From Cavenderia fasciculata (Eukaryota > Evosea > Eumycetozoa > Acytosteliales > Cavenderiaceae): a stretch of 64,000 nt of DNA. The notes beneath the pieces were generated by a model. The model did no database searches and was not told the DNA's origin. It saw only the letters and a list, made by a program, of their open reading frames with translations. The stretch covers positions 1,844,400 through 1,908,399 of the forward strand of contig NW_004457723.1 in the NCBI RefSeq assembly GCF_000203815.1, written 5' to 3'. Of this stretch, positions 41,743 through 56,420 are shown in pieces. Each line of letters begins with the position of its first letter. Position 1 is the first letter of the stretch. A program made the translations under genes and the position numbers.

Positions 41743-41765
41743 TTATTTTATTGATTGGATTTGGA

Positions 41766-41806
<41 letters not shown>

Positions 41807-43620
41807 TTGTTCTTATTCTTCCTAGAATAAACCCATTTACGATATAATTTGTTTGCACTCTTGTAAAATGTTCCAATGAATTGAAAGTTGCTTTGAAATA
41901 AACGGGCTCCAGTGCCTGGGGACAAAGTCAAAGGTGATCTTGTGGAGCCCGTTTAAATTGATCGGTCGAATGGTGGTTGTGGTGCAATAACACCAATTCT
42001 TTTACTTGTGGATTATGTTTGCTGATTACGGCAACATTGTAGTTTGGTGACGCCAGACGGAAGAATGGATCGCATTTGTTCGTCTCTATATCTCGATGAC
42101 CCATGTTTTGGTGGACGTTGGTAGCCACTACCGACAAGGATTCTGAGATGTCTGAGTTTTGGTAATCTATCCAACATTGGAATGACACCAAGTGAGTTGA
42201 TTGATACTGCTTCCAATGATTGCAAAATTGGCCAACTATTTGGATCGCCAGTCTCTTGTTGAAATAGAAATTGGTTATCTGGGTGGAAATAGTAGAGTTT
42301 TTTAAGTGGTTTAATTGACTGATGGCTTTACCACTTTCCACGTCTATTTTCCATTTGGATAGATCCAATGAAGTAAGAGATTGCAAACGAGCAAACGAGA
42401 GTAATAGATTTTCGGCACCAGGTAAAAAAAATTGAAAGACACGAGTCATTTGTTGTCACATATCGTAAGATGGATAGGGAACATAAAAGGTATTTAAGTT
42501 TGGCATTTGTTGTGGTGGATGCATCTTGCTGATTTGAATTGTGTTGGCTAGATCTGGTTTGAGTTTGATTGGATTTTCACACCAATCCTTTGGAAGTATG
42601 AGTTTCACAATCCCTGGTTGAAGAATATCCAAGAGTTTGCGTCTCTTAATAGTCGGACATGTCTTTACTTTTAAACTTATCGATGTTAGATTCTTGAATT
42701 GGGCGATCCATTCGACTTTAAATAAATTTTCAAATAGTGGTATGCGTGCATTGGACATTCATTTTTGATTCTTTGTGTTGCTCCAACAGCGGTTGATAGA
42801 CTGGCCACATTTGATAATGTTCAAACATTTGATAATTTGGTGGTTGCGATCGTAGAGTATCAACCAATCGATGACTATAGTAACAAGTACATATAGAAGA
42901 TTCATTCCAAACTAGATCGAGTATTTTACTTATGATTGACCACGGTAATGAATATCCAACCGATCCTGATGTAATCACATAAAGGATTATTGAATTGAGC
43001 CATTTTTTCTTTTAATTTCATTCTATCTCGAACCTTTTCTTCTCGATAATTTTGTATCTCTATAATAGTTTTGATAATCCTATCTTTGGTATGACTCTTT
43101 GGCTCATCAATATCTATTGATTGACAAATCAAAGTAAATGTTTCTTTTGTTTACTTTTCAATTCATCCTCGGTGTAGTACATTTGTGTAACTTGATATTG
43201 AAAAAAAAGGGTTAGTCATATGAATGCATGTCATTATTTCTTGTATCGATATTTACCATTTCCTTCATCGTCATTGTCATCAACATGATTATCATTTATA
43301 ATTCTCTTGTTGTTCATATTCATCATCATATATGATGATGTTGTCTTTGATTGCAATATTTCTATTTGTTCATCGATGGAACGCTGATTTGCTATACTAT
43401 TATACTTTTATTAACAATGTTTGGTAGTATTTAGAATGTTTGTCCTATGAGTAGTTGTAGTTGTACTTGTTGTAGTAGTTGTTGTTTCTTCTTCCATACC
43501 CGACAATATTACATCATCATTATTATTAATATCATCGTGTTCTACATTGTTATTGGTATTATTATCAGTGTTGCACTGACCCCTGTTTACAAATTGAAAT
43601 GTATTCCTTCTTTGTTTCAT
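41743..43620 (-). pseudogene. Two-module SAP/F-box-like/LRR family, copy 1 (degenerate)
   Basis: The 5' exon (start ATG 43620, MKQRRNTFQFVNRG, then a Thr tract) is out of frame at TTKHC near 43411. The next section (about 43160-42930) carries the SAP-like region and NPLCDY, and a frame change near 42976 leads to YSLPWSIISKILDLVW and ESSICTCYY. Most of module 1 after the Cys motif is deleted, since CPMH is replaced by an out-of-frame CTHTT. LRR-like parts follow (42456-42758 and 41928-42449), then a frame shift into the conserved C-terminal block FQSNFQFIGTFYKSANKLY and KWVYSRKN ending at 41743. Module 2's F-box-like helix is missing. Several independent breaks make this a clear pseudogene. 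Confidence 0.75.
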
Positions 43621-43815
43621 TATTACTTGAACATATAATTAGAATAATAATAATCGTCTCATGCATTTGTGATGTTCATTAAAGTGCATAAATTGTGCTT
43701 TTGCAAAAAAAACAAACAAAAAACAGCAAAACTAGTTAATCTGAACTTCATTTCCAGGATACCCCCTTTACTTTATTTTGGATTTAAAATATTTAGAAAG
43801 ATTAATATTTATTGT

Positions 43816-54365: not shown

Positions 54366-54469
54366 ACAGTGTGTGGGTTATGTTTATTTTTTTTCTCTTT
54401 ATCTGCTGATCTCTCATAACATTGAACTTCATTCATTCATTCGTTGTTCACCAAATAATAATAACAACA

Positions 54470-54724
54470 ATGACTACTCTATTACAGTTATCTAATTTAT
54501 TATTAATACATATCATATCAGAGATTGAAGATAATGTAGATACAATATGTTTGTTAATGACATGTAAAAAGTTATATCATAACAGTGGTATTAGAGGATC
54601 GATTAGTTTTAAAGGGATTGGAATAATAGATACAAACAAGAGAAATGAATCAAAATCATTTAGAGCAACAGTTAAAAGATTCAATCTAAACTCTTTCAAA
54701 GATACCTTGGACAAAAGTATATGA
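54470..54724 (+). pseudogene. Truncated F-box protein start (FNIP-repeat-protein type)
   Basis: From the ATG at 54470 the frame reads MTTLLQLSNLLLIHIISEIE, then DNVDTICLLMTCKKLYHN and a basic stretch, stopping at 54724. The pattern of a short F-box-like helix, 'D.ICLLMTCKK.Y', then an 'I.FKG' strand is how many dictyostelid F-box/FNIP-repeat proteins begin. No repeats follow: the sequence at ~54725 switches into the end of a minus-strand family relic. It is a fusion or deletion edge, and probably a dead gene. Confidence 0.5.
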
Positions 54725-54729
54725 ATGGA

Positions 54730-56420
54730 GTATAAACTGGAAAGTCTGATACATCCAACTCGGTCAGTGATTTAAATGTCAGGATAGAGTTGAATAGCAT
54801 TGTAAATAAATGTCTATTATCCTGTTCATCTTCTGTAACTTTAAGTCATTGTACGTTTGAATAGTAATCGAGTCAAAGGAATTTTGGATGATCTTGTGGA
54901 AGACTATCATCGTTATTAATCTCGAGAATTGAAAGGAGTTTTTAAACTCTAATGTAAGTGTTTCAATTGATTTACCAACCAAACAATATTGATTTGAAAA
55001 ATGCGACTGAAATTCTTTTAAACAAGTCGATGTGAGATCATCTCTCTTGACAAGATGTTTTGAAACAAATTCAAATAGTCTCTTGCATGTTAATGACAAT
55101 CCAAATCAGAGTCGATTGATAAATTGAAGAATATGTCGCCCACCATATGTGCCAGTATGAGGAGCACGATCCTTGTGTATTGGACAAATTGAAGTGGCGA
55201 TGATGAGTCGTTGGAAATCCACTTGAAATGAATTATCATTTTCTGTATCAGTTTCAACATTTCACAAGTACAATAATAACTATTCCAAGAGTATCTAACT
55301 ATCTTTTCAATTAAATAAAAAGGAAGTGTTGGGTTGTTGTTGCTAATAATGATTTCCTTTGGGTTGTTTTCTGTGGTTTTTTTATCTGTTGTTTCAATTA
55401 TTATTTGTGGTACATTGGTTATTGGTTTTTGATCTCCCTCGCCTGTTTGAGTTTTAGTGTTGTGATGGTTGGTGGAACGTTGGTGATAGTTGGTGAATGT
55501 GTGGCCGGCGATTGATAACCATTTTCTTGATAGACCAATTTGGTCAGTTTTGTACCGGCCAAGTCGAATCTACCATGTGGGATATCGATGATATGGAATA
55601 TTCGCAAGTTTGGCATTTGTTGAGGTGGAAGGATGATGCTGTTGACAATGTTGTTGGCCAATCGAGTGTCTAGTACAATTGGGTCTTTACACCAATCCCT
55701 TGGAAACAACAATTTTACTATTCCTACTGTTGTTGACTTGTTGATTGCCTCCAAAAATGAATCACTTGTCGATGATGCAGTTTGGTAGTCTAGTAAATTG
55801 ATTGATGTGAGGAAACATTTTAAACTATTAAATATGAATCTGACTAGAGTGTTGTCGTAGGTTTTTCTTTTGAATGAATTGTTGATTGTGATTGATTTAA
55901 TATTCTTAAATATCTTGAGGATGGATGGTTGAATACTGTCAGTTTTTAGTGTGATCTTTTCAACTGAATTCAATGCCATTATGTTTTTTAGTGTTTTAAT
56001 TGGACAATATTGGTTGTTGAGGTGATCCAATGATTCTTGGTTGAATGGCAATGCAAAATCATTAAAATAATTTAATGACAGAAACTGGTTGACTCGTTTT
56101 GATATGCTGAGTAGTTGGGATATCCACGTGTTGCAATAGAAGATTCAGTCCAAACTTGATCGAGTATTCTACCAATGATCGGCCAAGGTAATGAATATTC
56201 CAGTGACCCCTTGTTGTAATCACATAGAGGATTATTGTCAACCATTTTACGTTTAAACTCTAATCGCTCATTTTGTATCTTTATGATTCGATTGATGATT
56301 GTATCTTTGTTTGGCTTGTCATTGATCTTATCTCTAGTGGTTGACAAATGACAAGTAAATCTTTTTTAAGTTTACTCTTTAATTCATTCTCTGTGTATAT
56401 TCTATTTTCATCTAAATATT
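54730..56420 (-). pseudogene. Two-module SAP/F-box-like/LRR family, copy 5 (degenerate)
   Basis: Frames are broken in many places. 56420-56340 carries the SAP-like lead (YTENELKSKLKKDLL), then a frame change. 56072-56347 holds PNKDTIINRIIKIQNERLEF and SLEYSLPWPIIGRILDQVW but has lost the CTC...CPMH part by deletion. 55419-56051 carries HLNNQYCPIKTLKN and leucine-rich strands. 55260-55340 has the module 2 start IEKIVRYSWNSYYCTC. 54779-55099 has LTCKRLFEFVSKHLVKR and HFSNQYCLVGKSIETL. Similarity stops at ~54730, so the last third is missing. Weak traces of exon 1 (acidic, Asn tract) may lie at 56440-56800. It is closest to copy 4 in wording. Confidence 0.75.

Follow-up and report, generated by a model that had tools for sequence, protein, structure and literature searches.

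A lineage-expanded family of two-module proteins with leucine-rich repeat-like strands, with candidate zinc motifs and possible F-box-like heads in Cavenderia fasciculata

The last 64 kb of one Cavenderia fasciculata contig (C7:1844400-1908399, here called the window) carries an array of related, mostly broken genes, which raises the question of what kind of protein this family encodes. A first-pass annotation of the window had read each full copy as two homologous modules, each an F-box opened by a putative zinc-binding insertion and followed by leucine-rich strands. We examined the array against the genome assembly (30,995,898 bases, 21 contigs). The architecture of the family, its internal duplication, the invariance of its motif, and its expansion are established by sequence. 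The function is, in our cautious judgment, probably that of lineage-expanded, two-headed substrate adaptors of the F-box/leucine-rich repeat (LRR) type, in which each head is opened by a putative zinc motif.

The A+T content of the window is 47 to 72% in 2-kb steps; the genome report gives 31 Mbp in 25 supercontigs and 66.2% A+T (PMC4334915). Copies A to E and the relic were read from stop-to-stop frames, and the limits of the broken copies were set by eye. As previously described, all five copies lie on one strand, and a relic lies on the other.

41743..43620, minus strand: copy A, a pseudogene in which module 1 lacks its end and module 2 its head (frames, by eye)
43816..47276, minus strand: copy B, a pseudogene with a late frameshift, an interrupted exon 1, and an in-frame TAA at 44846-44848
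47396..50559, minus strand: copy C, with two frame breaks, in exon 1 near 50.45 kb and in exon 2 near 48.88 kb
50730..53836, minus strand: copy D, the sole copy in the array that is open through both modules
53877..54364, plus strand: inverted module-2 relic (frames LSYNLIEKIVRYSWNSYYCTC and LQSLEAVSINSLGVIPMLDRLPKL)
~54696..56780, minus strand: copy E, eroded, with the module-1 CTC-CPMH stretch gone (by eye)

Copy A has several frame breaks. The TAA of copy B stands immediately upstream of its module-2 CPIH, and this copy has further breaks in exon 1 and close to its 3' end; its exon 1 also seems, by eye, to be broken up at 46840-47110 by about 0.3 kb of sequence absent from copy D. The exon-2 break of copy C falls in a short run of A whose length differs by one base between copies B and C. 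The ratio of nonsynonymous to synonymous substitution rates (dN/dS) between copies B and C is 0.39 for the N-terminal pieces and 0.67 for the C-terminal pieces, pointing to breaks that are recent or partly sequencing errors. The assembly was built from dideoxy and 454 reads (PMC5282741).

To trace the family, the genome was searched by tblastn with copy D (59 matches), a divergent member (58), and a nearer relative (55). All 59 matches of the first search were used, together with 42 of the 58 and 7 of the 55 (the remainder fell, by eye, at places that were already covered), giving 108 pieces. Because tblastn scored only the best candidates, the family counts are lower bounds. Under an approximate joining rule, the pieces form at least 68 gene-sized groups on 11 of the 21 contigs, 37 of them spanning at least 2.2 kb. 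At least 22 members have long open frames: 12 from the copy D search (copy D included), 9 from the divergent query, and locus L058 (940 amino acids). The view that a single copy is open thus holds for the array but not for the family. Likewise, the picture of a family that expands and decays fits the array, whereas many groups elsewhere keep long open frames; the decay is local.

The copy D gene, as modeled from its frames, would consist of an exon at 53836-53500, an intron at 53499-53423, and an exon at 53422-50730. All of its parts lie on the minus strand.

53500..53836, minus strand: exon 1, an open frame beginning MKQRK... and encoding a low-complexity N-terminus rich in Asn, Asp, Lys, and Ser
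53423..53499, minus strand: predicted intron, GTAAATAT...AG, 77 nucleotides, phase 1, joining the exon frames
50730..53422, minus strand: exon 2, an open frame with the HeH-like pair and modules 1 and 2, 871 amino acids from the first internal ATG
53292..53411, minus strand: HeH (Rho_N/SAP-type) helix pair (Pfam Rho_N E 0.0023, 18.3 bits against a cut-off of 24.9)
51936..53222, minus strand: module 1 (hhalign with module 2; own clade)
53019..53159, minus strand: module-1 CxC...CxxH (C89, C91, C132, and H135 of the exon-2 product; invariant in 18/18)
52128..52742, minus strand: module-1 LRR-like strands (7 hxxhxh peaks, spacing 24 to 43 residues)
52029..52097, minus strand: module-1 closing block, GYEYHGSTFK...RQFKFIK, the first part of which aligns with the module-2 C-terminal block
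50733..51935, minus strand: module 2 (hhalign with module 1; own clade)
51777..51878, minus strand: module-2 CxC...CxxH (C516, C518, C546, and H549; invariant in 18/18)
50862..51563, minus strand: module-2 LRR-like strands (9 hxxhxh peaks, spacing 21 to 33 residues)
50733..50858, minus strand: module-2 closing block, NNYQFIGTF...KWVYIKR (family alignment)

The low-complexity part of exon 1 is both basic and acidic. The MKQR start recurs in copies A, B, and C and at loci L016 and L017, and was found in 4 of the 15 loci checked (copies D and B counted). The motif GTAAATAT is found at the equivalent position in all of copies A to D and at L014, L016, and L017; L010 differs.

We aligned 18 long-open-frame members of the 68 groups, drawn from two deep clades; L021 and L027, which have one stop inside their copy D tblastn match, were each represented by their longest open frame. 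Each module consists of helix 1, a CxC...CxxH insert, helix 2, seven to nine LxxLxL strands, and a closing block. The two modules are homologous, as had been proposed (hhalign 99.8%, 341 columns, 19% identity). In a tree of the 36 modules (midpoint root; four long terminal branches flagged), every module 1 is separated from every module 2 with support of 100/98. This separation makes the duplication look older than the divergence of the window clade from L055-L058, and because the modules are homologous and each forms a single clade, the family goes back to one old internal duplication.

The proposed split motif, CTC...CPMH in module 1 and CTC...CPIH in module 2, is present with its flanking helices in the array, and its general form, CxC...CxxH, runs through the whole alignment: 33 columns are invariant, and among them are eight Cys/His columns, each conserved in 18/18 members. 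The Cys, Cys, Cys, and His of each module thus offer four candidate zinc ligands per putative site in all 18 members. The CxC...CxxH span measures 44 to 69 residues in module 1 and 27 to 43 in module 2. An insert separates helices 1 and 2, as predicted from sequence, in every member, and the stretch between these helices is 69 to 91 residues long in module 1 and 38 to 62 in module 2, as measured in 32 of the 36 modules, those from which it could be excised. After helix 2, both modules of copies A-E and L010-L019 carry the element NNQYCPIK or SNQYCLxGKSI, whose Cys is kept in 16/18 rows per module. The leucine-rich strands look LRR-like (7 and 9 hxxhxh peaks); LRR_4 matches 7/18 members (E up to 10, best 4e-4), and the strand spacing is irregular, at 21 to 43 residues. 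The closing blocks read GYEYxGSTFK in module 1 and NNFQFIGTF in module 2. The shared C-terminal block is therefore present as claimed but is not confined to the C-terminus, since it also closes module 1.

We then asked whether the two helices of each head resemble an F-box. The spliced heads, which join helix 1 (LPxxIIxxI type) to helix 2 (xxSKR or xxCKR type) without the insert (12 module-1 and 8 module-2 rows; segments picked by eye), were compared by hhalign with 12 canonical F-boxes from the same genome and gave a score of 20.1 with a probability of 38%. None of 300 column-permuted F-box profiles reached that score (maximum 15.96). Modules 1 and 2 scored 19.1 and 19.3 separately, with 0/150 permuted profiles reaching either value. 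To allow for the hand-picked segments, we ran 250 random two-segment splices per module, none of which reached 19 (maxima of 15.65 and 16.21). The spliced rows matched the Pfam F-box model in 2/20 cases (best E 0.0061) and F-box-like in one. In a first hidden Markov model test, which covered the 32/36 modules that a pattern could cut (L057 lost both modules, and L010 and L056 lost module 2), real rows averaged 3.0 bits, compared with -0.2 (standard deviation, 1.5) for the 1500 scored of 1600 shuffles. Skp1_POZ has three above-cut-off matches in the genome, and a candidate Skp1 lies at C21:2705515. A study of the Skp1 interactome of Dictyostelium discoideum counted sequences as F-boxes even when a loop separates helices 1 and 2 or an insertion follows helix 3 (PMC9485057), so the architecture proposed here lies within the variation already accepted. 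That study predicted F-box-like sequences in 38 of the 92 interactome proteins and describes the LRR as the commonest receptor domain (PMC9485057).

A second F-box-like family in this genome, which has no insert, offered a further comparison. It is typified by LPNxILLNIIExIDNNVDLICLLLTCKKLYYN and has 150 scored matches, more than the 51 and 36 of the Pfam F-box models; many of its open frames are about 600 to 740 amino acids long. Fifteen short stretches of its members were used.

54470..54724, plus strand: fragment of this uninterrupted F-box-like family in a small open frame

The uninterrupted family matched canonical F-boxes at 70% (0/150 permuted profiles reached its score), and its member at C10:557699 exceeds the Pfam F-box-like cut-off. 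Its helix 1 and xTCKKLF-type helix 2 resemble those of module 2, which scored 30.5 (87%) against it; this score was reached by 0/150 permuted profiles and 0/300 random splices (maximum 27.4). By eye, it shares no place with the copy D tblastn matches.

Several results weigh against an F-box identity. Native, unspliced sequences matched Pfam F-box models in 0/18 members (E up to 10), and the 54 distinct F-box model matches listed in the genome all lie more than 1.5 kb from any family locus. The unrelated MS_channel_TM1 matches one spliced row nearly as well as F-box does (E 0.0083), and in the first test the best shuffle (10.4 bits) outscored 31/32 real rows. The spliced profile found no F-box in the PDB, where its top matches were angiogenins (E 0.12, taken as chance). 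Module 1 did not match the uninterrupted family (11.7, reached by 16/150 permuted profiles); for module 2, helix 2 alone, unspliced, reaches 26.0 against 30.5 and so accounts for most of the match, and several of its high-scoring random splices include helix 2. The fragment of the uninterrupted family in the window has no Pfam match itself. Finally, the helices are predicted from sequence, and their segments were chosen by eye. The idea of an F-box opened by a putative zinc-binding insertion thus has moderate to weak support: a profile resemblance that beats all permuted and random-splice controls, though at low probability, and is better for module 2 than for module 1, with no match of the native proteins to Pfam F-box models.

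These weaknesses give room to a serious, if less probable, alternative: the helix-CxC-CxxH-helix unit may be a zinc-stabilized cap at the N-terminal end of each LRR arc, in a two-arc LRR scaffold that does not bind Skp1. The unit directly precedes the LRR-like strands in both modules, and eight Cys/His stand among the 33 invariant columns, as such a cap would allow; the F-box likeness itself is weak and comes in part from a single helix. What favors F-box-like heads over caps is that both halves match the canonical F-box halves in order, and do so better than the permuted and random-splice controls.

The N-terminus might point to a different function. A helix pair precedes module 1, as had been noted, but it is better named HeH- or Rho_N-like than SAP-like. 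Rho_N matches 4/18 members (E up to 10), below the cut-off in copy D, and when six N-terminal segments were scanned separately, one matched Rho_N and one SAP_new25 (E 0.09); PF02037 was not among the matches listed for these segments. A PDB search with the 18-row profile returned only weak LRR and Rho matches. On these grounds, the proteins might be nucleic acid or chromatin proteins that contact DNA or RNA through the HeH pair and the two zinc motifs and partners through the LRRs. The Rho_N-type match, the PDB profile match to Rho (E 0.04), and the basic and acidic low-complexity exon 1 all point this way, whereas the HeH match falls under the Pfam cut-off and L018, L019, L021, L027, and L028 have no HeH in the same frame (a separate upstream exon was not sought). 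We consider this reading decidedly unlikely.

The searches made turned up no described family that accounts for the whole protein. The earlier statement that the architecture matches nothing described agrees with the empty NCBIfam and PHROGs scans of copy D and with Pfam matches limited to weak LRR and Rho_N hits. Copy D read from its first ATG had no Pfam match, and its one PDB match (E 0.93) was taken as chance. Among viral contigs, 155 pattern matches yielded none that was confirmed, as did 581 among prokaryote genomes; Rfam and tRNA scans of the window were empty. FNIP (PF05725) matched 0/18 members, in a genome with 193 FNIP matches. Among the titles and abstract openings listed from the open-licence literature on zinc-insert F-boxes and on dictyostelid F-box, SAP, and expanded families, none describes the family, and no listed title on tandem or double F-box proteins is related to it. 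A study that counted 78 families with lineage-specific expansion in C. fasciculata does not name it in the text examined (PMC8535579).

Clusters of two or more groups within 20 kb, many of them head to tail, hold 49/68 groups; examples are C21:884839-903265, C11:428102-439501, and C8:281002-289000. The first of these is a head-to-tail run of six divergent-clade groups, of which three are open along most of their length. The sequences of five pairs of intact paralogues show purifying selection on these pairs, with dN/dS values of 0.36 to 0.49. We also considered diversifying selection on the LRRs and rejected it, as regional dN/dS showed no clear excess there. We give almost no credence to a self-spreading selfish or mobile-element gene, which 68 groups over 11 contigs, many of them fragments, might suggest, since the clustering looks like the product of unequal crossing-over, no viral relative was found in the PHROGs scan or among viral contigs, and dN/dS stays below 0.5 in all five pairs (transposases and terminal repeats were not sought).

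Within 25 kb of contig ends (C7, C11, C14, and C20) lie 13/68 groups and 4/34 clusters, where about two groups and one cluster were expected (P ~0.03 by cluster, with the 25-kb cut-off chosen after the fact). This excess may reflect either subtelomeric siting or an assembly broken at repeats. No telomere was seen at the contig end in the window, which falls within a coding repeat rich in Thr, Ala, Gly, and Ser. Two further features of the window were noted.

58874..64000, plus strand: 1709-codon open frame in which the contig ends, with a Thr-, Ala-, Gly-, Ser-, and Val-rich product and tandem units of roughly 12 to 147 nucleotides; perhaps a repeat protein that halted assembly
39965..41658, plus strand: short frames, split by introns or breaks, that together presumably resemble a Y-family DNA polymerase (LDMDAYYAHVEENDNPSLKGKPVAVG)

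FBXL proteins, the F-box/LRR receptors of Skp1-cullin-F-box (SCF) ligases of the Skp2 type, are among the closest known systems: like the putative F-box-like helices here, their F-box helices precede LRR strands, and they too show lineage-specific expansion. The present family differs in having two heads per chain, each with a CxC...CxxH insert, and in lacking a Pfam F-box score unless the insert is removed. Opened F-boxes as such are already known: in the yeast proteins Ctf13, Amn1, Ylr352w, and Ydr306c, extra sequence lies between the F-box helices (PMC9485057), and Ctf13 combines seven LRRs with Skp1 binding in the CBF3 complex (PMC5771398). These divergent split F-boxes resemble the family by description, and the cited accounts, in the parts examined, mention no duplicated head or CxC...CxxH insert. 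The uninterrupted family resembles module 2 in its helices but has no insert and no match to module 1. FNIP/FGxxFN LRR proteins, described from Dictyostelium and giant viruses and in some viral cases fused to an F-box (PMC9525666), share an LRR expansion in social amoebae, but the FNIP model itself matches none of the 18 aligned members.

Taking the heads as F-box-like, we infer the following mechanism. Cytosolic or nuclear adaptors would have arisen from the old internal duplication, each half comprising an F-box-like unit of helix 1 and helix 2-3 with a small LRR arc after it. The CxC...CxxH insert between helices 1 and 2 would probably form a single zinc site. The heads would bind Skp1/Cul1, the LRR arcs would select substrates for ubiquitylation, and the N-terminal stretch, with its low-complexity and HeH parts, may anchor the protein on nucleic acid. 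A bolder version, which we think rather unlikely, is a two-headed SCF adaptor in which the zinc site holds each F-box open or closed; such a protein might recruit two Skp1-cullin arms or have its Skp1 binding gated by metal or redox state, while its LRR arcs read one or two substrates, and the family would be a fast-evolving recognition repertoire amplified in one amoeba lineage.

If the heads bind Skp1, dictyostelids would possess a large hidden set of ubiquitin-ligase adaptors, which domain models would miss because the zinc motif splits the F-box. The 150 scored matches of the uninterrupted family also suggest that the adaptor repertoire of this lineage exceeds current model counts. For SCF receptors, an F-box that is duplicated and built around metal would then be an architectural novelty. 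The family would represent a new form of F-box/LRR protein if Skp1 binding holds, and otherwise a new family of zinc-capped double-LRR proteins.

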